From Gemmatimonas groenlandica (GTDB lineage Bacteria > Gemmatimonadota > Gemmatimonadetes > Gemmatimonadales > Gemmatimonadaceae), in assembly GCF_013004105.1 (NCBI RefSeq), contig NZ_CP053085.1:806001-870000 (forward strand): a stretch of 64,000 nt of DNA, read 5' to 3'. Below are positions 15,623 to 27,967 of this stretch, one piece after another. Positions within the stretch are counted from its first letter, which is position 1, and each line of letters starts with the position of its first letter. The translations under genes and the position numbers were made by a program. Under the pieces are notes generated by a model. The model had not been told where the DNA came from. It saw nothing but the letters and a program-made list of their open reading frames with translations, and did no database searches.

Positions 15623-15853
15623 GTGGCTGGCTGAGCCATCGGCGCGGCGTGAATGGTTCGTCATCGGACCGTTCCGCCGAGGTCCGCCGGTGGTCCGAGC
15701 AATTTTCTGGTTAGGCGCACACACTTTCGGGTTGCGCGACGGCGAGCGTCTGCCGATACTCCCGATCACGCCGTCTCGAAAACCTCGTTGCCGTTCGGCC
15801 ATCCGCAGCACGCGCGCGCGGAACACCATCACCACTCGCAGGAGAATCGTCCC

Positions 15854-16147
15854 ATGTTGGAGCAGTTCGGGTCGTCGTCGCTGGACGCGCTCGAAGAGAA
15901 GTTGCCGTCCTCGGTTTTTGCGCTGGCTGCCGACGACGAAGATTTCGACGACGAAGGTCTCGACGACGATCTCGACGAAGATGACGATGAAGATGATGAC
16001 GTCGACTTCGATGATGACGACGACGATGATGACGATGATGATGACGACGACCTCGATGATGACGACGAGGACGACGACGATGATGACGAGGACGAAGATC
16101 TGGATTTTGACGTCGATGGGTTCGACGATGATGATCCGGACGCGTGA
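15854..16147 (+). CDS. Small poly-aspartate acidic protein
   Basis: 97 residues. The first 26 form a possible amphipathic segment (MLEQFGSSSLDALEEKLPSS). From residue 27 to the end about four fifths of residues are Asp or Glu, including a run of about 14 Asp, broken by periodic Phe, Leu and Val. The only basic residue is Lys16; there is no Cys, Trp or Tyr. AGGAG lies 9 nt before the ATG. The poly-GAY coding strand spans about 15940-16140. It sits between typA and a tRNA gene. I recognise no family. A cation-binding, nucleic-acid-mimic or ribosome-associated role is conceivable. It may be low-complexity DNA that is coding by chance, but the RBS and clean start argue for a gene. Confidence 0.65.
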   Translation: MLEQFGSSSLDALEEKLPSSVFALAADDEDFDDEGLDDDLDEDDDEDDDVDFDDDDDDDDDDDDDDLDDDDEDDDDDDEDEDLDFDVDGFDDDDPDA

Positions 16148-16267: not shown

Positions 16268-16341
<74 letters not shown>

Positions 16342-16350
16342 CTGAACAGG

Positions 16351-16389
16351 AACGGCGGCGGCATCGGATCCCTCGATGCCGCCGCCGTT
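16351..16389 (+). terminator. Hairpin terminator after tRNA-Ile
   Basis: A perfect 16-bp stem (16351-16366 with 16374-16389) with a 7-nt loop, followed by TTGGTATT. It lies 10 bp downstream of the tRNA. The U-tract is short but the stem is very stable. Confidence 0.7.
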
Positions 16390-16406
16390 TGGTATTATCG
16401 TCGGAA

Positions 16407-17117
16407 ATGCCCAAGCGCTCCTGGTTCTTCGTCGGTATGGGCGCCGTGGCGCTCGGCGCGGTGCTGTTCGGATTTGGTCGTACGTACGTGGTCCCGATGT
16501 CTCGTGGGACCTTCGCGGCGCCGTGGGTGGTGCATCTCCACGGCGCGTTGGCGATGACGTGGGTGTTGCTGTTCCTCACGCAGCCACTGCTGGTGCGATA
16601 CGGAGCACTCTCAACGCACCGGCGCATCGGACGGCTCGGAGTGCCGCTGGCGATCGGTGTCGCGGTCACGATGCTGCCCGCGGGAGTGTTTCAGGCCACT
16701 CGCGACGCCGCCGCCGGAGCCGGCTCCACCGGCATCTCGGCGATGCTCGGCGTGCTGACCTCGGGACTGCTGTTCGTTGCGCTGGTGGTCGCAGGCATCA
16801 TGTCGCGCCGCGATCGCGAGGCGCACGCGCGATGGCTGCTGCTCGCCACACTGGTCGTGATCTGGCCCGCGTGGTTTCGTTTCCGCCACTGGTTTCCGGC
16901 GGTGCCACGCCCTGACATCTGGTTCGGCGTCGTGCTGTCGTATACCTGGATCGTGGTCGCGATGCTTCGCGACTGGCGCGCGCGCGGGTCCGTACACCCG
17001 GTGCTTTTATATGGCGGCGGTGCGGTGATCGCCGAGCAGGTGTTCGAAGTGCTGTCCTTCGACAGTGCGTGGTGGCGCGAGGCCGCGCAGCTGTTGTACG
17101 GCGCGCTGCACGGCTGA
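16407..17117 (+). CDS. Multi-pass integral membrane protein of unknown function
   Basis: 236 residues with about seven hydrophobic segments (residues about 7-25, 40-62, 75-93, 110-132, 142-165, 175-192, 205-222). Conserved-looking membrane histidines (VVHLHGALAMTW near residue 42 and STHRRIGRLG near 68) resemble the arrangement in DUF2306/cytochrome-b561-like membrane proteins, so heme or quinone binding is possible but unproven. ATG 16407 starts MPKRSWFF. It stands between the tRNA terminator and a convergent DUF1259 gene. Confidence 0.7.
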   Translation: MPKRSWFFVGMGAVALGAVLFGFGRTYVVPMSRGTFAAPWVVHLHGALAMTWVLLFLTQPLLVRYGALSTHRRIGRLGVPLAIGVAVTMLPAGVFQATRDAAAGAGSTGISAMLGVLTSGLLFVALVVAGIMSRRDREAHARWLLLATLVVIWPAWFRFRHWFPAVPRPDIWFGVVLSYTWIVVAMLRDWRARGSVHPVLLYGGGAVIAEQVFEVLSFDSAWWREAAQLLYGALHG

Positions 17118-17137
17118 ACCGCACACGTCGCCGCGCG

Positions 17138-18103
17138 CTATCTGGCCGCCGGTCTCGCTGTCTGGTCGAGTGCGGCGCGCAATCCCGCCGCCAAGGTGAC
17201 CGCGTTCGCGTTGGCCCAGAAGTGCATGAAGAACAGCCGCGGCGTCTCGTCGAGCATGTGACTATGCAGCGCCGTGACTTCGATACCGTGATCGCGAAGT
17301 GCACGAATGACCGGGTTCACCTCTGCCGCCGTCATCACGAAGTCGCCCGTGATGGCCGCCTTCCCGCCACCGGTGGGCTGAAAGTTCATCACCGTCGCCA
17401 CGCCCATCGACGGTGGTACTTCGACACCGTGGGCCACAATGCGTTCGGCGCGTGGCGCATTCACTTGATACACGCCGCCGTTCACTCGCCCGGCCACGCC
17501 GAGCGTTCTCGCGATGGCGGCGGTGTCCAGATCAAACGCCGCGGATGCGGGTGAGGTCGGTGCGGGAGCGGTCGGCGCGGTCATCGGTGTCTTGCTGGCG
17601 CCGATCGCGATGCGAATGGCGTTCGCGATCTTCACCGCGTCCCCGTGCGCATCGATGTGCATGTAAAGCACTCGCGGGTTTTCGCGAAGGACGTGCTGAT
17701 GCAGCGCCGTTTGCTCCACGCCGTTCTGTTGCAGCGCCAGCATGACCGGGCTGACCTCGTTTTCCGTGAGCACCAGATCACCCATCACCATGGTCGTGCC
17801 GCCGGCGTCCATCCGCTTGAACGCCACCCATGAGCCGAGAGCGAGCGTCGGCTTCAGTGTCACGCCGTCGGCAACGACCGTGAGATCGGTGCGGGGAAAA
17901 CCGAAGCGGAGCACGTCGCCGGGCTGCATGGCGCCTCGTCCGCCAAGTGCTTGTTGCACACTCGCCCACGTCGGGCCGCCATCAGCAGGAAGCGACATCA
18001 CCTGCGCTGCACCCGGCGTCGAAGCCGAGAGCGTGATGCCCAGCGCACCAAGTAGATGTGATCGAAACGTCATCCGGGCCGACTTCGCGTTGCGTCGCGT
18101 CAT
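17138..18103 (-). CDS. Exported protein with two DUF1259 (LppY/LpqO-type) domains
   Basis: 321 residues. The signal peptide region MTFRSHLLGALGITLSASTPGAAQ follows a short charged extension. Two tandem DUF1259 copies follow, about residues 45-165 and 190-315. Each has the pattern G...Y/VLRF..PR..L.V...GV...P....GSW.AF ... MGDLVLTENEVSPVM...L..NG.E.TALH.H.L.E.PR..YMH. The paired HxH / MHxxAxG elements suggest metal binding. ATG 18103 has AGAGG about 7 nt upstream, better than the TTG 15 bp further out. It is transcribed divergently from the DUF5916 operon. DUF1259 has no firm biochemical role. Confidence 0.85.
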   Translation of the reverse strand: MTRRNAKSARMTFRSHLLGALGITLSASTPGAAQVMSLPADGGPTWASVQQALGGRGAMQPGDVLRFGFPRTDLTVVADGVTLKPTLALGSWVAFKRMDAGGTTMVMGDLVLTENEVSPVMLALQQNGVEQTALHQHVLRENPRVLYMHIDAHGDAVKIANAIRIAIGASKTPMTAPTAPAPTSPASAAFDLDTAAIARTLGVAGRVNGGVYQVNAPRAERIVAHGVEVPPSMGVATVMNFQPTGGGKAAITGDFVMTAAEVNPVIRALRDHGIEVTALHSHMLDETPRLFFMHFWANANAVTLAAGLRAALDQTARPAAR

Positions 18104-18222
18104 GGCAGAACCTCTCAAAACCGAGCCGCGATCCGCGGCAGGAACAGGAACCAGTCGCCATACATCGCGTGTGGGGCCAGCGACTGAGATAACATAGCCG
18201 TAAGTTCGGGTCTAGCCCGTCG

Positions 18223-20583
18223 ATGCCGACCACGGCCGCTTCCATCTCTCCCCGCTTCGCGAACCCTGTGCTCGTTGCTCCCCGATTCACCTCATGTGCG
18301 GCGATCGTCGCGCTGACCGGAACTCTGCTTTCGGCGTCGATCGTTCACGCCCAGCCCGTCGTTGCGGCGGCAGCGAAAGGTGCGCCGGCAGGGGCCACAG
18401 GTGGGGCCGCCGGCGCGACGTTACGGAGCGCACCACTCGGCTCAGGATTTCGCCTGGACGGTCGCATGGATGAGGCCATGTGGACAGCGGCCGACTCGAT
18501 CGGAGCACTCACCGAGGTCGAACCCGTCGCGGGCCGCGCGCCGGCCGGTCGCACCATCGTGCGCGTGCTGACCGACGCCGACCGAATCGTGATCGGCGTG
18601 CGCGCCGACGATCCGAATCCCGATGGCATCGTGAGCTTCGCCCGCGAGCGCGACAACTCACTCGCCAACGAAGATCACATCAAGATCGTGCTCGATACGT
18701 ATCTCGACGGTCGCTCGGGCTACGTGTTCGCGGTGAATCCGAACGGGGCGCGCTACGACGCGTTGATCTCGGGAGACGGCGAGAACGCGAATTGGGATGC
18801 GGTCTGGGACGCCGCGACGGTGCGCACCGCGACCGGATGGTCGGCGGAAATCGTGATCCCGATCCGTAGCGTGCAGTTCGCCAGCGGGTTGACCACGTGG
18901 GGCTTCAACGTGCAGCGCCGTGTGCAGCGCTTGCTCGAGAACGACCGATGGGCGAGTCCGGTGCGCGACTTCAAGATCACGCAGACGTTTCGCGCGGGAC
19001 GACTCACCAATCTGCCGCCGTTCGCCCTTGGCCTCGGACTCAGCGTCCGTCCGTCACTGATGGGTGCGACGGGCGTGCCGGCCCCGGGCGCAGTGCGCCG
19101 CGATGAACGCGACATGAGTCTCGACATCACGCAGACGCTCGGCGCGAGCACACTGGCGGCCCTTACGGTGAATACGGACTTCGCCGAGACCGAAGTCGAC
19201 ACGCGTCGCACGAATCTCACGCGCTTCCCGATTGTATTTCCCGAGAAGCGCACGTTCTTCCTGCAGGGCGCGGACATCTTCGACTTCGGGCTCAGTCTCG
19301 GCGACGACGTGCGGCCGTTCTTCAGCCGGCGCATCGGTTTGCTGAGTGGCAACGAAGTGCCGATCCGCGCCGGCGTGAAAGTCACGGGGCGCGCAAATGG
19401 TGCGAACGTGGGAGCGATTGCGTTGCGCACGGGCGACCTCAGTGCTGCGGTCACCGCGGGCACCACGTTGCCGTCAACCGCGAATACGCTCGGCGTGCTC
19501 CGCTACAAGCAGAACATCGGACGTGAATCCACGGTGGGGATGATCGGCACCATCGGCGATCCCACGGGCCGCGCCAACAGTTGGATGGGAGGTCTGGATG
19601 CGACGTATCAAACCTCACGCTTCCACGGCAACAAGAACCTCGCCATGGGCGTCTGGGGGCTGCAGACCGACCGCGACGGCCTCACCGGCGAGAAGTCGGC
19701 GTGGGGCGCCAAGATCGACTATCCGAACGACCTCTGGCAGATCTCGGCCACTTACAAACGCATCGGCGACGGCTTTGATCCGTCACTTGGCTTCGTGCCG
19801 CGTGCCGCCGCCCAGATCATCACCTTCACGAGCAACTTCGTGCCGCGTCCGCGCGGACGGGTGGCCGGTTTGCGCGTGCGTCAGATGGTCAACGAGTTCC
19901 AGCCGCGCGTCGTCACCGACTTGAACGGGAAGTGGGAGAGCTATCGCATCTTCATGGCGCCGGTAAACTGGCGTCTCGAGAGCGGCGACCGCTTCGAGCT
20001 CAACGTGAATCCCACCGGCGAGCGATTGGCCGTGCCATTCACGATTGCGCCGGGTGTCACGATTCCCGCTGGCGCGTATCACTGGAATCGCTATCGCGTG
20101 GAAGGTGGGCTCGCTGCCAAGCGCCGCTTCAGCGGACAGGCCACCTGGTGGTTCGGGCCGTTCTACACGGGCCGGCTCGACGAGATCACCTTGACCACCG
20201 CGTGGAAGCCGTCGTCACTGTTCAACGTGGAAGTGAACGGCACGCGCAATATCGGCCGTCTGCGCGAAGGAGGGTTCACGCAGGATTTGATCGGCACTCG
20301 ACTGCGCGTGAATGTATCGTCGAACCTGCAGCTCAATAGCTACGCGCAGTACGACAATCAGAGCGACACGTTCGGCGCGAACACGCGGATTCGTTGGACG
20401 TTCTCACCGCTCGGCGACCTGTTCATCGTGTACAACCACAACCTGCGCCACGACATCAACGGCGACACCGGGCTGCCGTACGGCACGGGCCTGCAGACGG
20501 ATCCGACCACGCGCTACCCGCGCAACTGGGGCTTCGCGTCCAATCAACTGCTGGTCAAGTTGCAGTATGCGTTCCGCTACTAG
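18223..20583 (+). CDS. DUF5916 / CBM9-like outer-membrane protein
   Basis: 786 residues. An N-terminal signal-like segment ends near SIVHAQP. A carbohydrate-binding family-9-like beta-sandwich (about residues 65-235: LDGRMDEAMWTAADSI..., ANWDAVWDAATVRTATGWSAEIVIPI) precedes a DUF5916 region (about 250-786) with many short aromatic beta strands. It ends in LLVKLQYAFRY, a C-terminal aromatic residue as in outer-membrane barrels. The EKRTFFLQGADIFDFG motif is typical of DUF5916 proteins. It is the first gene of a tight plus-strand group: the next ATG starts 1 bp after its stop. The ligand is unknown. Confidence 0.85.
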   Translation: MPTTAASISPRFANPVLVAPRFTSCAAIVALTGTLLSASIVHAQPVVAAAAKGAPAGATGGAAGATLRSAPLGSGFRLDGRMDEAMWTAADSIGALTEVEPVAGRAPAGRTIVRVLTDADRIVIGVRADDPNPDGIVSFARERDNSLANEDHIKIVLDTYLDGRSGYVFAVNPNGARYDALISGDGENANWDAVWDAATVRTATGWSAEIVIPIRSVQFASGLTTWGFNVQRRVQRLLENDRWASPVRDFKITQTFRAGRLTNLPPFALGLGLSVRPSLMGATGVPAPGAVRRDERDMSLDITQTLGASTLAALTVNTDFAETEVDTRRTNLTRFPIVFPEKRTFFLQGADIFDFGLSLGDDVRPFFSRRIGLLSGNEVPIRAGVKVTGRANGANVGAIALRTGDLSAAVTAGTTLPSTANTLGVLRYKQNIGRESTVGMIGTIGDPTGRANSWMGGLDATYQTSRFHGNKNLAMGVWGLQTDRDGLTGEKSAWGAKIDYPNDLWQISATYKRIGDGFDPSLGFVPRAAAQIITFTSNFVPRPRGRVAGLRVRQMVNEFQPRVVTDLNGKWESYRIFMAPVNWRLESGDRFELNVNPTGERLAVPFTIAPGVTIPAGAYHWNRYRVEGGLAAKRRFSGQATWWFGPFYTGRLDEITLTTAWKPSSLFNVEVNGTRNIGRLREGGFTQDLIGTRLRVNVSSNLQLNSYAQYDNQSDTFGANTRIRWTFSPLGDLFIVYNHNLRHDINGDTGLPYGTGLQTDPTTRYPRNWGFASNQLLVKLQYAFRY

Positions 20584-20584
20584 C

Positions 20585-21271
20585 ATGCGGACGCGCGCGT
20601 TGCTGCTGCTCTTGGCGGTGGCGTTGCCGTCCGTTGCCTACGCCCATGGCGTAACCGCCGGCGACAAGGGCTACATCATGGAGACGTTCGGCACGCGCAT
20701 CGTGCCGTTCATGTATCTCGGTGCGAAGCACATGGTCACTGGTTACGACCATCTGCTCTTTCTCGTCGGCGTCATTTTCTATCTGTACCGCCTGAAGGAC
20801 ATCGGCGTGTACGTCACGCTGTTCGCCGTTGGCCACTCGATCACGCTCATAGCTGGAGTGCTCATGGGCGTGCAGGTAAACGCATTCGTCATCGATGCGG
20901 TGATCGGTGCCTCGGTGATCTACAAGGCGCTGGACAATCTCAGCGTGTTCTCGCGCTGGTTGCGATACGAGCCCAATCCGCGCACTGCGACCGTGGTGTT
21001 CGGGCTCTGTCACGGACTCGGATTGGCCACAAAGATGCTCGACTTCGAGTTGGGCAAGGCCGGCCTGCTCGAGAATCTGCTGGCCTTCAACGTCGGCGTG
21101 GAGGTCGGACAGTTTCTCGCGTTGTGTGTGATCCTCATCGCGATGAGCTTCTGGCGTCGCAGTGCCAGCTTCGTGCGCTACGCGACCGCCGCGAATGTCT
21201 TGCTCCTGATGAGCGGCGTGGCGCTCGTGATCTATCAGGTGAACGGCTACTTCACCGCGTCACCGACCTAG
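20585..21271 (+). CDS. HupE/UreJ-family membrane protein
   Basis: 228 residues. A cleavable signal (MRTRALLLLLAVALPSVAYA) is followed by an N-terminal His and about six membrane spans. Family features include GAKHMVTGYDHLLFLVGVIFY near residues 45-65 (His and Asp in a membrane segment), FAVGHSITL near 80, and a second set FGLCHGLGLATKML with FNVGVEVGQ near 140-170. Related HupE/UreJ proteins transport nickel or cobalt; this subfamily's metal is not established. It lies 1 bp after the DUF5916 gene and 8 bp before the next gene. Confidence 0.85.
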   Translation: MRTRALLLLLAVALPSVAYAHGVTAGDKGYIMETFGTRIVPFMYLGAKHMVTGYDHLLFLVGVIFYLYRLKDIGVYVTLFAVGHSITLIAGVLMGVQVNAFVIDAVIGASVIYKALDNLSVFSRWLRYEPNPRTATVVFGLCHGLGLATKMLDFELGKAGLLENLLAFNVGVEVGQFLALCVILIAMSFWRRSASFVRYATAANVLLLMSGVALVIYQVNGYFTASPT

Positions 21272-21279
21272 GAGGACGT

Positions 21280-21873
21280 ATGCAACAGCAGGACGAGCCT
21301 CCCGACGATCTGCCGTCCGTGCGCCTGCTCGCATGGCTGTCGCTCTGCGCCCTGCTGCTCGCGGCCTTCATCGGCGTCGCGGTCGTGCTGCCAGCGGAAA
21401 CGGACCGCGATCCGACCGGACTGGGTCGTGTGCTCGGGATCGCCGAGATGGGTCGCATCAAGGTGGCGCTCGCCAACGAGGCCGTGGCCGAAGTGAAAGA
21501 AGGCGCTCGGGCAAAGACATCTGAGGCAACGCAACTGACTGGGTCGCGCTGGCGTGACTCGATGACGATCACGTTACAGCCAAGTCAGGGAATCGAGGTC
21601 AAGATGTCGATGCGTACCGCCGAAACGGCGCGCTACGCATGGACGACGGACGGTGGCGAGGTGTACTTCAACATGCACGGCGAACCGCCGAATCCGCCCA
21701 AGGACTACGCGGCCCATCGCTACGGTAAGGGCACGTCTGCCGCCGAGTCGGGTGAGTTGGTGGCCGCGTTCGACGGCGTGCATGGGTGGTTCTGGCGCAA
21801 TCGCACGGAGCAGCCGATTACAATTACGTTGCGGACTGGTGGGGAATATCTCGTGCTCAAGGAGCTCAAGTAG
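21280..21873 (+). CDS. Membrane-anchored periplasmic protein (transmembrane anchor type)
   Basis: 197 residues. A short cytoplasmic N-terminus (MQQQDEPPDDLPSVR) precedes one membrane span (about residues 16-38). A periplasmic domain of about 155 residues follows with IEVKMSM...ARYAWTTDGGEVYFNMHGEP and HGWFWRNRTEQPITITLRTGGEY. It is not a catalytic family I know. GGAGG lies 5 nt before ATG. It directly follows the HupE-like gene and abuts the next ORF (TAG then ATG). The WFWRNR...ITL...GEY pattern suggests a beta-sandwich. A helper or metal-delivery role for the HupE-like protein is inference from context. Confidence 0.7.
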   Translation: MQQQDEPPDDLPSVRLLAWLSLCALLLAAFIGVAVVLPAETDRDPTGLGRVLGIAEMGRIKVALANEAVAEVKEGARAKTSEATQLTGSRWRDSMTITLQPSQGIEVKMSMRTAETARYAWTTDGGEVYFNMHGEPPNPPKDYAAHRYGKGTSAAESGELVAAFDGVHGWFWRNRTEQPITITLRTGGEYLVLKELK

Positions 21874-22290
21874 ATGAAGACCACAGTCGTACTGTCGCTC
21901 GGGGTCGCACTCACGCTCGCCGCAGGTCGTCATGTGGCGTGGGACGGCATGGTGATGGGCGTTGGAGGTTCGAAGCTCCGCGGCGAGGTGGAGATGGTGG
22001 CCGGTAAGACGCCGGGAACGACCGCCGTCGAAGTCAGCTTCGCCCGCGACGCGGCGGGGGCGATCCGGCCCTGGCACGTACATGTGGGCAGCTGTGCGAA
22101 AGGCGGTCCTGTACTGGGCGCCGCGTCGGCGTATCCGGTGCTGCGCGTAGACGGGAAGGGCGCCGCCGGGGGCAAGGCGACGTTGCGCCTGGCGCTCCCG
22201 GATAGCGGGAGCTTCTACGTGAACGTCCATGAGTCGTCCTCCGCGATGGCGAAGATCGTGGCCTGCGGGGATCTGCTGCTGGAGGAGTAG
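21874..22290 (+). CDS. Small exported SOD/CHRD-like protein
   Basis: 138 residues with a signal peptide (MKTTVVLSLGVALTLAAG). The mature part resembles Cu/Zn-SOD- or CHRD-type beta folds: VEVSFARDAAGAIRPWHVHVGSCAKGG (HxH plus Cys near residues 68-75), VDGKGAAGGKATLRLALP, FYVNVHES. No full SOD active site is visible. It starts immediately after the upstream stop codon, so it is translationally linked to the HupE group. Metal binding in the periplasm is a reasonable inference. Confidence 0.6.
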   Translation: MKTTVVLSLGVALTLAAGRHVAWDGMVMGVGGSKLRGEVEMVAGKTPGTTAVEVSFARDAAGAIRPWHVHVGSCAKGGPVLGAASAYPVLRVDGKGAAGGKATLRLALPDSGSFYVNVHESSSAMAKIVACGDLLLEE

Positions 22291-22322
22291 GGGCCGCTGT
22301 TGGAGGTCGCTAGACTGCAGGG

Positions 22323-23525
22323 ATGACGACACCGACCGAAACCGCCCCCGACCGCTACGCCTTCTGGCAGAACGCTCCGCTCTCGATCGCGGGGTCGCGG
22401 GTGCTGGTGGCCACGAAGCCTGGGGTGTTTGCGCACGGCACGGTCGACCCGGCGTCGATGATGCTGGCGGAACAGATGGCGTCGATGGGGAAGAGCACCT
22501 CGGTGCACCTGAACTGCGGTAACGGCATGGTGCCTGCCGCCGCGGCGGTGGCCGGTGGCGCGTCGATACTCTGGTGCTCGGATCGTTCGCTGCCGTCGGT
22601 GCAGGCGACGGAGCGTACGATGGCTGCGAACGGCATTGCCGGCTCTCATGTGGTGCACGCGCATGGCACGCACGCATTTCCGCTGGCATTGGCGGCGGAT
22701 GTGGTCACCATTCGCGTGTCGACCGACAAGCTGGCGCTGCAGCAGCTCATCTGGGAGGCGTTTCACGCGCTCCGGATTGGCGGCAAGTGCTACATCGCCG
22801 GCGCGAACGATGAGGGCGTGAAGCCGGCGGTGCGTCTTCTGGAGTCGATCTTCGGCCTGGCTCGCCTCGAGGCCCAGCACAGCGGGCACCGCTTGGCGGT
22901 GGCCACCAAGACCCAGATCGCCCCCGCCTCGCTCACCGAGGGCACGTCACCGTATCTCGACCCGGATCATTTCCGCGACGTCGCGGTGACGCTCAAGGGC
23001 GTTGCCCACACGCTATATTCGCGTCCTGGCGTGTTCTCGTGGGAGCATCTCGACGAGGCCACGCAGATCCTGGGAGATGTGCTGGACATCCGCGCCGGTG
23101 AATCGGTGCTCGATCTGGGCTGCGGCGCGGGTGCGCTGGGGCTCACGGCGGCCACCTTGTCCGGAAGCGGCCGCGTGTTGATGGTCGATGCCGACGCCGA
23201 GGCGGTGCGTTGCGCCGCGCGCGGCATCGCGAAGGCCGAGCTCGGCAACGCCGAGGTGCGCACCAGCGACGTGGGTGGCGGGGTGGGTGAGGAGCAGTTC
23301 GACGTGGTCGTCTCCAATCCGCCGTTTCATCAGGGGAAGGCCACCGATCTCATGGTACCGCGGCAGTTTATCGCCGACGCCTACGCGCATCTGAAGGTGG
23401 GTGGTCGCCTATTGTTGGTGGCCAACCGCACGCTCCCGTACGAGCAGGTGATCGGCGACCGGTTCGGTGAGGTCCGCACGGTTCACGACGGTCGCCGGTT
23501 CAAAGTGCTGGGCGCCACCCGGTAG
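22323..23525 (+). CDS. RsmC-type class I SAM-dependent rRNA methyltransferase
   Basis: 400 residues. Two methyltransferase-like halves are arranged as in RsmC/RlmG: a degenerate N-terminal domain (about 25-190), then a catalytic domain (about 215-400). Catalytic motifs: SVLDLGCGAGALGLTAA (motif I, about residue 260), MVDADAEAV, and VVSNPPFHQGKATD, the NPPFH motif for N2-guanine methylation. The closest named match is 16S rRNA m2G1207 methyltransferase. It is 32 bp downstream of the HupE group and may or may not share its transcript. Target position is not proven by sequence. Confidence 0.8.
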   Translation: MTTPTETAPDRYAFWQNAPLSIAGSRVLVATKPGVFAHGTVDPASMMLAEQMASMGKSTSVHLNCGNGMVPAAAAVAGGASILWCSDRSLPSVQATERTMAANGIAGSHVVHAHGTHAFPLALAADVVTIRVSTDKLALQQLIWEAFHALRIGGKCYIAGANDEGVKPAVRLLESIFGLARLEAQHSGHRLAVATKTQIAPASLTEGTSPYLDPDHFRDVAVTLKGVAHTLYSRPGVFSWEHLDEATQILGDVLDIRAGESVLDLGCGAGALGLTAATLSGSGRVLMVDADAEAVRCAARGIAKAELGNAEVRTSDVGGGVGEEQFDVVVSNPPFHQGKATDLMVPRQFIADAYAHLKVGGRLLLVANRTLPYEQVIGDRFGEVRTVHDGRRFKVLGATR

Positions 23526-23627: not shown

Positions 23628-26600
23628 ATGTGGATTGTTGAGCTGGCGCTGAAGCGCCCCTACACCTTCATCGTCGGTGCACTGCTGGTCGTGCTCTTCG
23701 GGGTGTTGTCGCTGTTTCGGATGCCCACGGACATTTTCCCGGAAATCGACATCCCCGTGGTGTCGGTCATCTGGTCGTACAACGGGTTGCCGCCGGAGGA
23801 GATGGAGCGACGGTTCTCCACGCCGTTCGAGCGGGCGGTCACCACGACCGTAAACAACGTCGAGCATATCGAGTCGCAGTCGCTCGCCGGCGTGAATGTC
23901 ATCAAGATTTTCTTCCAGCAGGGCGCCGAAGTGGAGTCGGCGGTTGCCCAGCTGGCGGCGGTGTCGCAGAGTATTCTGCGCATCATGCCGCCGGGCGCGT
24001 CGGCGCCGTTCATCATCCGCTACAATGCGGCCAACGTGCCGGTGCTGCAGCTCGCGCTGGGTGGTGATTCGCTGTCCGAGCAGGAGCTGGCCGATCTCGG
24101 CACAAACGGCATACGCACCCGGCTTGCCACGGTGCGCGGTGCCAGCGTGCCGTCGCCCTATGGTGGTCGGTCGCGCGTCATCAACGTGGACCTCGACCCA
24201 GAGCAGTTGATGGCTCGCGGCATTTCGCCCACCGATGTGAGTGATGCCGTGAATGCGCAGAATTTGGTGTTGCCCTCGGGCACCGCGAAAATCGGCGAGC
24301 GCGAATACACGGTGCGGCTGAACGGAAGTCCGGATGCAGTCGAAGCGCTGAACGATCTCCCCATCCGCACGGTCAACGGGGCGTTGATCCGCATTCGCGA
24401 TGTGGCGCAGGTGCGTGACGGGTACGCCGTGCAAACGAACATCGTCCATCGCGACGGCGTGCGCGGCGCGTTGGTCACGGTGCTCAAGTCGGGTGGCGCG
24501 TCCACGATCGACGTCGTGAAGCGCGTACGCGAGGCGTTGCCCGGCATTCTGTCCACGCTGCCGTCGGCGCTCAAGGTCGACCTCCTGGCCGATCAGTCGC
24601 TGTTCGTGAAGGCGGCGCTGAACGGCGTGCTGTTCGAAGCCGCGGTGGCGGCCTGTCTCACCGCGTTCCTGATTTTGCTGTTCCTCGGAAGCTGGCGTGC
24701 CACGCTCATCGTGGCCCTGTCGATCCCGTTGTCTATCCTGGTGTCGATCACAGTACTGGCCGCGCTTGGCCAGACGATCAACGTGATGACGCTCGGTGGG
24801 CTGGCCCTCGCCGTCGGCGTGTTGGTCGACGATGCCACGGTCGGCATCGAGAACATCTATCGGGTGCTCGCCCACGAGTCCGATATCGAGAAGGCGATTC
24901 TCGAGGGGGCGGGGCAGATCGCCGTGCCCACGCTCGTGTCGACGCTGGCCATCTGCATCGTGTTCGTGCCGATCTTCTTTCTGAGCGGTGTGGCCGGCTC
25001 TTTGTTTGCGCCACTCGCGATGGCCGTTGTGTTCGCGATGCTCGCGTCATATGTGATTTCGCGGACGCTGGTGCCGACGCTGGTGCGCTACGCGCTGGAG
25101 AAGGAGCGACGGAATCGCGAAGCGGCGCACGGCGTGGAAACACCCGGGGCCTTCACGCGGGCGCACCATCGGTTCGAAGCGTGGTTCGAGCAGCAGCGCC
25201 TCCAGTATCGTGACGCGCTGTCGCGTGCGCTGCACCATCCCACCAAGGTGTTCGTGTCCTTCGGTCTGGTCGTCGTGTTCGCCGGTGGGCTCGTGCCGTT
25301 TCTCGGACAGGATTTCTTCCCGGTGGTCGACGCCGGACAGATTCGCCTCCACCTCCGCGCACCGATCGGTACACGTGTCGAGGAGACCGCGCGGCTGGTG
25401 GCCGAGGTTGAAGCCAGGATCCGGAAGATCATCCCGCCGGCAGATCTCGGGACGATGCTCGACAACGTCGGCATCAGCACGTCGAGCTCCACCAACTTGG
25501 CGTTCAGCGACAATCCGACCACCGGTGTGACCGACGCCGACATCCTGATCGTGTTGAACGACGAGCGCGTCGGCAACGTCGATGCGTACCGTCGAGAAAT
25601 GCGCAGCATGATGCGCGCAGACTATCCACAGGTCGCCTTCTTCTTCCAAGCCGCCGATATCGTCGGGCAGATTCTCAATTTCGGACTTCCGGCGCCGATC
25701 AACGTGCAGGTGGTCGGCTCGAACAAGGTGAAGAATTTCGAGATCGCGCAGTTTCTCGAGCGCCGGTTGCGCAACGTGCCCGGCGCGGTGGATGTGTATT
25801 TGCAGCAGCGCACGGCCGGCCCTGAGCTGTTCGTCTCGATCGACCGCGCCCGCGCGTCGGGGATGGCGCTCACGGAACGCGAAATTGCCAGCGATCTCCT
25901 CGTGTCGCTGTCATCCAGCGGCCAAACGGCACCGAACGTGTGGCTCAATCCGCAGAACGGCGTGCAGTATTCGGTGAACGTGCAGACACCGCAGTACCGC
26001 GTGGCCTCGCTCGAGGCGCTGGGGCGCACGCCGCTCTTGGGCGCTGCTGGCGGCACGACGCAGATGCTCAACAACCTCGCCACGATCACTCGCCGCAGTG
26101 GCGTCGCCGTGGTCAGTCACTACGACGTCGCACCGGTATTCGACATCTTCGCCAATGTGCAGGATCGCGACTTGGGTGGCGTCGCGCGTGAAATGGAAAC
26201 CGTACTCGACTCATTGCGCCGTGACCTGCCGCGCGGCACGACGCTCGCGATTCGCGGCCAGGTGGCGAGTATGTGGACGTCCTACACCGGCCTCGCGGTT
26301 GGTCTGGTCTTCGCGATTCTGCTCGTCTATCTCGTGATGGTGGTGAATTTCCAGTCGTGGTTGGACCCGTTCATCATCAGCTGCGCCATCCCTGGTGCGC
26401 TGGCCGGGATCGTCTGGGCGCTCTTCGCCTGCGGCAACACCATCACCGTTCCGGCGTTCATGGGGGCGATCATGAGTATGGGCGTCGCGACGGCGAACAG
26501 TATTCTCGTGGTATCGTTCGCCAACGAGCGCATGGCCGCCGGGCGCACGGCGCTTGAAGCGGCGCTCGATGCCGCGTCGACCCGCCTGCGCCCGGTGATC

Positions 26601-26783
26601 ATGACCGCGCTTGCGATGCTCGTGGGCATGCTGCCGATGGCGCTCGGGTTCGGGGAAGGTGGTGAGCAGAATGCTCCACTCGGTCGTGCCGTCATCGGTG
26701 GACTCACTTTCGCTACGGTAGCCACGCTCTTCGTGGTGCCGATCGTATACAGCCGGCTGCGTCGTGCGCCGAGGACCGTGTAA
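23628..26783 (+). CDS. RND efflux transporter (AcrB/HAE family)
   Basis: 1051 residues, the normal size for an RND inner-membrane pump. It has 12 membrane spans in two repeats. The N-terminal LKRPYTFIVGALLVVLFGV and the FPEIDIPVVSV motif are typical. The proton-relay Asp pair lies in TM4 (LVDDATVGIENIYR, about residue 400), and a large periplasmic porter domain lies in each half. It exports drugs, lipids or metabolites by proton antiport together with the adaptor encoded next (stop and start overlap, TAATG). No outer-membrane channel gene lies nearby. The substrate is unknown. Confidence 0.93.
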   Translation: MWIVELALKRPYTFIVGALLVVLFGVLSLFRMPTDIFPEIDIPVVSVIWSYNGLPPEEMERRFSTPFERAVTTTVNNVEHIESQSLAGVNVIKIFFQQGAEVESAVAQLAAVSQSILRIMPPGASAPFIIRYNAANVPVLQLALGGDSLSEQELADLGTNGIRTRLATVRGASVPSPYGGRSRVINVDLDPEQLMARGISPTDVSDAVNAQNLVLPSGTAKIGEREYTVRLNGSPDAVEALNDLPIRTVNGALIRIRDVAQVRDGYAVQTNIVHRDGVRGALVTVLKSGGASTIDVVKRVREALPGILSTLPSALKVDLLADQSLFVKAALNGVLFEAAVAACLTAFLILLFLGSWRATLIVALSIPLSILVSITVLAALGQTINVMTLGGLALAVGVLVDDATVGIENIYRVLAHESDIEKAILEGAGQIAVPTLVSTLAICIVFVPIFFLSGVAGSLFAPLAMAVVFAMLASYVISRTLVPTLVRYALEKERRNREAAHGVETPGAFTRAHHRFEAWFEQQRLQYRDALSRALHHPTKVFVSFGLVVVFAGGLVPFLGQDFFPVVDAGQIRLHLRAPIGTRVEETARLVAEVEARIRKIIPPADLGTMLDNVGISTSSSTNLAFSDNPTTGVTDADILIVLNDERVGNVDAYRREMRSMMRADYPQVAFFFQAADIVGQILNFGLPAPINVQVVGSNKVKNFEIAQFLERRLRNVPGAVDVYLQQRTAGPELFVSIDRARASGMALTEREIASDLLVSLSSSGQTAPNVWLNPQNGVQYSVNVQTPQYRVASLEALGRTPLLGAAGGTTQMLNNLATITRRSGVAVVSHYDVAPVFDIFANVQDRDLGGVAREMETVLDSLRRDLPRGTTLAIRGQVASMWTSYTGLAVGLVFAILLVYLVMVVNFQSWLDPFIISCAIPGALAGIVWALFACGNTITVPAFMGAIMSMGVATANSILVVSFANERMAAGRTALEAALDAASTRLRPVIMTALAMLVGMLPMALGFGEGGEQNAPLGRAVIGGLTFATVATLFVVPIVYSRLRRAPRTV

Positions 26784-27967
26784 TGGGACAGCCTCACTCG
26801 CAGATCCAGCAGCGTCGGACCCGGTCCGGGCGTGTGCTGCCGATCGTGATCATCGCCATCTTCATGCTGTTGCTCGTTGCCGGAGTGCTGCCGCGGCTTC
26901 GGCAGTCGCAGGCGCGTTCGGCCGAGCAGAGCACTGCGACCGACGTGCCAACGGTGTTCACCGAGACGGTGGGACGCGACACCGCCGATACGGAGCTCGA
27001 CTTGCCGGGATCGATCGCCGGCTTGCACGAGACGGGGATCTACGCGCGTACCAACGGCTTCGTGAAATCGCTCCGGGTCGATATCGGTTCGATGGTCCGT
27101 GCCGGCGACACGTTGGCGGTTCTCGATATGCCAGACGTGGCCGAGCAGCTTCGGCAGGCCCGTGCGTCACTCGAGCAGGTGGAAGCTTCGGCCGGACTGG
27201 CGCGCAGTACGCTCGCCCGCTGGAAGAGCATGCGGGAACAGGCTGCCGTGACGCCGCAGGAGTTCGACGAGCGTCAGGCCGCCGCCAACGTAGCCGAGGC
27301 GAACGTGCGTGTGTCGCGCGCCAACGTGGCGAATCTTTCGGAGGTGCTACGCTTTGGTGCACTGATCGCGCCGTTCCGTGGTGTGGTCACGTCACGTACC
27401 ATCGATATCGGTGGGCTCGTGTCGGCCGGCGCCGTGACGGGCAACCGGCCGCTGCTCACGCTCGTGCAGATCGACACGTTGCGGGTCATGCTGAATGTGC
27501 CGCAGAGTGCCGCCGCGATGGTTCGCGTTGGTCAGCGCGCCGACGTCGCGGTACGGGAGTTGGGCGACACGACATTCCGCGGACGGGTGGCCCTCACCTC
27601 GCGCGCCATCGATCCACTCAGCCGCACGCTGCTCACCGAAGTTCACGTCACCAACCCCGACCGACGGCTGCTGCCGGGTATGTTTGCGCACGTCAAGTTT
27701 ACCGTGCCCACGGCAGGCGGTGGGCTGCGCATTCCATCGATCGCACTCATAGTGCGTGCCGACGGTACGCAGGTGGCCCAGGTCGTGAATGGCAAAGTGC
27801 GACTGACCCCCGTCACCCTCGGCCGCGACTTCGGTACGTCGCTCGAGGTACTGTCGGGCATCGCTCAGGGAGCCGAGCTGGTCGTGAATGCGAGTGAACA
27901 GCTGTCCGATGGCATGGTCGTGAAGGCCATCGCGCGCGGCAAGGCGCCAGCCAAGCCGGCGCCGTAA
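26783..27967 (+). CDS. RND periplasmic adaptor (HlyD/MFP family)
   Basis: 394 residues. There is an N-terminal membrane span (about 14-33). The barrel-sandwich half GIYARTNGFVKSLRVDIGSMVRAGDTLAVLD (about 85-115) is followed by an alpha-hairpin (about 115-185), the second half FGALIAPFRGVVTSRTIDIGGLV, a beta-barrel, and a membrane-proximal domain (GLRIPSIALIV... VTLGRDFG...LEVLSGIAQGAELVVN). It bridges the pump to an outer-membrane channel. Its ATG overlaps the pump's TAA. It converges with the pseudouridine synthase gene, 8 bp away. Confidence 0.92.
   Translation: MGQPHSQIQQRRTRSGRVLPIVIIAIFMLLLVAGVLPRLRQSQARSAEQSTATDVPTVFTETVGRDTADTELDLPGSIAGLHETGIYARTNGFVKSLRVDIGSMVRAGDTLAVLDMPDVAEQLRQARASLEQVEASAGLARSTLARWKSMREQAAVTPQEFDERQAAANVAEANVRVSRANVANLSEVLRFGALIAPFRGVVTSRTIDIGGLVSAGAVTGNRPLLTLVQIDTLRVMLNVPQSAAAMVRVGQRADVAVRELGDTTFRGRVALTSRAIDPLSRTLLTEVHVTNPDRRLLPGMFAHVKFTVPTAGGGLRIPSIALIVRADGTQVAQVVNGKVRLTPVTLGRDFGTSLEVLSGIAQGAELVVNASEQLSDGMVVKAIARGKAPAKPAP

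Follow-up and report, generated by a model that had tools for sequence, protein, structure and literature searches.

A HupE_UreJ_2 permease and a predicted GOLD-fold membrane anchor as a candidate two-subunit metal transporter in Gemmatimonas groenlandica

Introduction

A row of four closely spaced genes in Gemmatimonas groenlandica raises the question of whether their products act together on metals in the cell envelope, and which of these genes belong together at all. The genome of this member of the Gemmatimonadaceae is complete (5.18 Mb), and the window considered here is a stretch of 64,000 nucleotides taken from it. On its forward strand there are a DUF5916 gene (18223-20583), which encodes a candidate outer-membrane barrel with a CBM9-like N-terminus, a gene for a HupE_UreJ_2 (PF13795) permease of 228 aa (20585-21271), a gene for a homologue of the 'transmembrane anchor protein' of 197 aa (21280-21873), hereafter the anchor, and a gene for an SOD-like exported protein of 138 aa (21874-22290). 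The gaps between them are 1, 8 and 0 bp. A divergent gene on the reverse strand (17138-18118) codes for an exported protein with two DUF1259 domains. A preliminary description had proposed that the four genes form one undescribed envelope system for metal acquisition or delivery; the gene positions and gaps on which it was based have been confirmed.

The HupE_UreJ_2 permease

The second gene had been described as coding for an inner-membrane permease, and the protein indeed matches the Pfam family HupE_UreJ_2 (PF13795) with E=3e-53 and 180 bits (cut-off 24.5). Its signal peptide ends in AYA|HG and its HX5DH motif reads HMVTGYDH. Residues A20 and H21 and the HX5DH motif are invariant across 16 aligned homologues, and a histidine follows an A-type signal-peptide junction in 76 of the 78 HupE genes adjoining anchors; cleavage presumably takes place at this A|H junction. 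HX5DH is shared with HupE from Rhizobium leguminosarum, a nickel uptake facilitator, and with the HupE/UreJ proteins of PF04955. Canonical members of the latter family also carry the motif FHGX[AV]HGXE, whereas this motif is missing in all the HupE genes adjoining anchors (0/78), and PF04955 is not among the Pfam matches of the window HupE.

Anglerases are HupE/UreJ-2 proteins to which an N-terminal-His domain is fused; they bind Cu and Ni and have been proposed to work in uptake (PMC12537917). The window HupE resembles these Ang-1/Ang-2-HupE/UreJ-2 fusions in its PF13795 permease and in the N-terminal His placed straight after the signal peptide. However, only about 21 residues separate H21 from the start of the PF13795 match (residue 42), and the periplasmic Ang beta-sandwich domain that is fused between His1 and the permease in anglerases is absent; a separate membrane-anchored protein with a predicted GOLD fold is encoded by the adjacent gene instead. 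Further HupE proteins of the host genome are two that resemble fused anglerases (L072 and L073) and two short ones (L070 and L071). One of the former (L072, 5551-7878) has an unusual three-part architecture, in which HupE_UreJ_2 and an N-terminal-His Ang-like domain are accompanied by an apparent C-terminal cytochrome c (CLGCH).

The membrane anchor

The anchor is assigned to the NCBI 'transmembrane anchor protein' family by homology to annotated members and by its position directly after HupE/UreJ. Its best homologues are 38-48% identical over 83-100% of the protein, and homologues were found on 399 plasmid records, mostly adjoining HupE. A TM helix (residues 14-41) is followed by a conserved helix (54-80) and a periplasmic domain (93-196). 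The AF2 model (pLDDT 91) consists of the TM helix, a long helix and then a beta-sandwich, and the periplasmic part is confidently predicted to be a GOLD-fold beta-sandwich: the top matches of the fold search are GOLD domains of p24 proteins, with Z of 12.9, 12.2 and 11.9, above the unrelated rows, the best of them (Z 12.9) with an rmsd of 1.4 A over 87 residues. As Pfam gives no match for the anchor, the GOLD assignment is one of fold, not of sequence family. The likeness to eukaryotic p24/TMED GOLD domains lies in the predicted fold of residues 89-189 (Z 11-13), whereas identity is around 10%, the order of TM helix, helix and GOLD domain is reversed and the protein is bacterial; a shared function is not implied. 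The crystal structure of Ang-1 (9GCE) is not among the fold matches listed for the domain. Two histidines of the anchor, H133 and H168, do not vary among the 46 sequences compared.

The anchor has taken other forms in related genomes. In genus sisters it is split and permuted, a gene for a secreted GOLD domain preceding one for the TM helix (L054 6307-6998, L055 8181-8875 and L056 8524-9212), which is possibly a subfunctionalised tandem duplication. The tandem of two complete anchors in another locus (L078) is, judging from the sequences, a plausible intermediate toward the split form. Some loci of Gemmatimonadota (L062-L064) have kept the TM-helix part alone and so can do without the GOLD domain; it is the TM-helix part that looks like the one required for pairing with HupE.

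The HupE-anchor pair in other genomes

Among 99 genomes of the family, the search with HupE and the search with the anchor matched an identical set of 15, in which both genes are neighbours in every case where the contig is long enough to tell; the chance of such an identical set is around 5e-18 in a naive estimate that ignores phylogeny. From other genomes, 80 anchor loci were taken, the best among more than 500 candidates, so the counts that follow describe these best loci and are not a survey. HupE is present at 78 of the 80; of the other two, L081 borders the end of a contig and L099 has no HupE. HupE and anchor are spaced by no more than 50 bp in 64 of the 79 scored pairs, and in the other 15 the ORFs have extended starts and read into each other.

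The neighbours of the pair were scored by BLAST against one set of annotated plasmid references in the 72 long loci among these best 80. Genes for NreA, NreB, RcnA, DmeF, CzcA or CzcB occur in 49 of the 72 and a Ni/Co gene proper (NreA, NreB, RcnA or DmeF) in 43, while CzcA is found in 20 and copper genes in five; 23 loci have no match to the Ni/RND reference set. The metal theme of the preliminary description is supported. On annotated plasmids, the neighbours include RcnA/NreA, NreB, CzcA and Cop. A small His-rich protein, often with an RPPR/KPPK-like tail, is encoded right before HupE in proteobacterial loci, 29 of the same 72; examples of this short membrane or exported protein are L047 4797-5189, L048 6813-7169, L049 4896-5270 and L050 4833-5177.

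Within the Gemmatimonadaceae, a CusA/CzcA-type RND gene often precedes HupE and overlaps it by 4 bp in six loci (L054, L055, L056, L058, L060 and L062), and ArsR and metallophosphoesterase genes stand beside or near the pair in four (L054, L056, L059 and L074). Loci L059, L061 and L066 have copper P-type-ATPase-like or CopC/CopD-like genes in their vicinity, and because of such copper-type genes the metal may differ between loci. The window itself contains an RND pump and a membrane-fusion gene (23628-27967) just past the rsmC-like gene that follows the SOD-like gene; this pump (23628-26783) was considered as a partner and rejected, since it is not an orthologue of the HupE-coupled RND proteins (30% identity).

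Homeostasis and resistance, or uptake

The pair is widespread among bacteria and sits mostly in clusters for nickel and cobalt resistance. Adjacent HupE/UreJ and 'transmembrane anchor protein' genes in the same order belong to Ni/Co resistance clusters on plasmids of Klebsiella, Escherichia, Acinetobacter, Pseudomonas and rhizobia, and the Ni-induced HupE cluster of Sphingobium sp. ba1 is counted with these. The window differs from those clusters in lacking NreA, NreB, RcnA and the His-rich protein before HupE, and in having the SOD-like, DUF5916 and DUF1259 genes as neighbours. In Sphingobium sp. ba1, the cluster of NreB, RND efflux and HupE genes is not expressed in ordinary medium and is switched on strongly by nickel; HupE responds more than any other gene of this Ni-efflux cluster (PMC5557971). 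One Klebsiella plasmid has ncr/nir genes about 5 kb from the pair, and the nickel efflux genes ncrABC have been characterised in Enterobacter and Leptospirillum (PMC8545094, PMC3046157). The HupE-anchor pair can therefore hardly be called undescribed, given the anchor homologues on plasmids and the induced Sphingobium HupE.

From the sequences, co-occurrence, synteny and conserved residues, together with an empty site in a relative (see below) and the predicted GOLD fold, it seems probable that HupE_UreJ_2 and the anchor form a two-subunit inner-membrane metal transporter for homeostasis or resistance, the DUF5916 and DUF1259 proteins being neighbours. Some observations count against this reading: among the ORFs flanking the window pair neither a Ni/Co efflux gene nor a CsoR/RcnR-type regulator was recognised, the RND pump of the window does not correspond to the coupled one, and 23 of the 72 long loci gave no match to the Ni/RND reference set. 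The sole PF02583 gene of the host genome is located at 2.51 Mb, 1.7 Mb from the locus.

The other direction of transport would make the locus an uptake module, in which HupE imports a scarce metal that the anchored GOLD domain captures in the periplasm together with the SOD-like protein. Characterised HupE proteins import nickel, and the fused N-terminal-His domains of anglerases, proteins that bind Cu and Ni, were proposed by their authors to feed the permease for uptake (PMC12537917); the window HupE shares their mature N-terminal His context, and a Massilia plasmid carries genes for a TonB receptor, DUF4198, HupE and the anchor consecutively. Nevertheless, efflux and resistance genes are the neighbours elsewhere, the related Sphingobium cluster responds to excess nickel (PMC5557971), and urease and NiFe-hydrogenase, the two enzymes searched for, are absent from the host genome, so nickel import for either of them is unlikely. 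On these grounds we regard uptake as rather unlikely, and the acquisition role first suggested for the locus gives way to resistance or homeostasis.

The SOD-like companion

The small exported protein had been described by its HxH and Cys residues, which were found again in the motifs PWHVHVGSC, NVHES and VACGDL: three His arranged as in Cu-SOD (HxH and H119) and two Cys. Its HxH, its third His and its two Cys follow one another as in Cu/Zn superoxide dismutase and CHRD proteins, to which there is also a weak profile similarity, but it is without the fourth Cu ligand and the Zn loop of the dismutase. Pfam gives no match for it, Sod_Cu included, and its identification as a Cu/Zn SOD was rejected, the profile not being significant (best PDB profile E=0.023). 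The AF2 model (pLDDT 53, from five sequences) gives no fold assignment.

The SOD-like gene adjoins the HupE-anchor pair in the window, in L074-L078 and in the genus sisters L054-L056. In the tree of the family the copies linked to the pair form one clade (support 94/89), whose support becomes 98/99 once it is joined by a copy from G106 that stands beside DUF1259 and ArsR genes. In that genome (L235, 4913-6731) the SOD-like gene is followed by the DUF1259 gene and then by the ArsR-type gene, an arrangement that links both families. Copies of the window type retain HxH, the third His and both Cys, whereas those adjoining HupE in the genus sisters have lost the His, so not every copy needs to bind metal. 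On plasmids, the SOD-like query found CHRD-type matches only; the gene before HupE there was considered as an equivalent and discarded, as it encodes the His-rich short protein. In Gemmatimonas and its kin, and only there, the SOD-like gene genuinely accompanies the HupE-anchor pair.

The DUF5916 and DUF1259 neighbours and the island

All these genes lie in a variable island, a block of 5.9 kb (16388-22322) between a forward-strand tRNA-Ile(gat) gene (16268-16342), its left border, and the rsmC-like gene that starts at 22323. The island was delimited by blastn of the window against the corresponding locus of a genus relative (G121, L231), which is an empty site with the island flanks about 75 bp apart. 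Ahead of the tRNA gene, the window encodes an extremely Asp/Glu-rich (poly-D) predicted protein (15653-16147), which relatives conserve in this position. No inverted repeat of the kind of an operator-like site was found in the 104 bp divergent spacer, nor any exact consensus sigma-70 promoter within the window.

The DUF5916 assignment is based on a Pfam match of 32.7 bits (cut-off 22.6), the CBM9 N-terminus being sub-threshold, and DUF5916 is a multi-copy family with five strong matches in the host genome. The two DUF1259 domains claimed for the divergent gene are present as two stretches matching PF07485 above its cut-off (E=1.2e-89, 296.7 bits). Relatives of this protein, 53-58% identical, are encoded beside ChrA/ChrB in chromate-resistance loci on plasmids, whereas no chromate genes were noticed in the surroundings of the window copy. 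DUF1259 has another metal setting in G110 (L233, 4935-9000), where a DUF1259 gene and a CusA/CzcA-type RND gene share one strand and overlap.

It is in this part of the locus that the four-gene system, with the DUF5916 barrel, HupE, the anchor and the SOD-like protein acting jointly across both membranes, has to be judged. Besides the very short spacings, it can be noted that one MAG contig (L223/L077) keeps the window order from DUF5916 through rsmC, so this order is not unique to the window; yet relatives differ. L074 starts with ArsR and metallophosphoesterase genes, which in close relatives take the place of DUF5916/DUF1259, and is window-like from HupE on (86% DNA identity); L076 has a metallophosphoesterase gene where the window has DUF5916; and in L222 (G120) rsmC comes directly after DUF5916, the other three genes being absent. 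DUF5916 orthologues without HupE were also found in L224, L227 (with a downstream flank of only about 0.9 kb), L228 and L229, and divergent DUF5916 and DUF1259 pairs in G101, G103 and G104. On this synteny, neither DUF5916 nor DUF1259 was retained as a component of the system, and joint action of the four genes becomes very improbable; the recurrence in other genomes that had been suggested as a check holds for HupE and the anchor, partly also for the SOD-like gene, while DUF5916 is found separately or replaced. As relatives carry them apart, gene order suggests that the pair of DUF1259 and DUF5916 and the trio of HupE, anchor and SOD-like gene are modules with separate inheritance.

Proposed mechanism and significance

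HupE and the anchor are left as the core components, and in the two-subunit transporter that we favour they would keep Ni/Co-type ions, perhaps also Cu, balanced or out of the cytoplasm; the identity of the metal and the direction of transport, like all the roles given here, we infer. The permease would span the membrane and show its N-terminal His to the periplasm. Physical contact is likewise supposed: the TM helix and the conserved helix of the anchor would dock on HupE, and the GOLD domain, with its two invariant His, could cover the periplasmic mouth. The SOD-like exported protein would be a lineage-specific periplasmic accessory, and the DUF5916 and DUF1259 genes may have gathered as neighbours in the tRNA-linked island. 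That the pair is instead a non-transporting accessory of metal stress, for instance one that senses metal or helps RND pumps to assemble, would suit the 4 bp overlaps with CusA/CzcA-type genes and the fold match to GOLD domains of eukaryotic p24 proteins, which act in cargo sorting, but it is most improbable, since the permease retains HX5DH and other conserved residues, which suggests transport, and many loci have no RND pump.

A more specific form of the two-subunit transporter, which we put forward tentatively, is that of an anglerase divided between two proteins: HupE/UreJ-2 would present the N-terminal His, and a separate anchored GOLD protein would handle the metal in trans beside efflux pumps, with a further split in some Gemmatimonas. 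The anchor is carried on about 400 plasmid records, many of them from Klebsiella and Enterobacter, and no paper on this protein, nor one linking it with nickel, was found in the literature searched. Its role is made testable by the predicted GOLD fold, the two invariant His and the near-obligate pairing with a metal permease, and this would link nickel resistance loci with the newly described anglerases.
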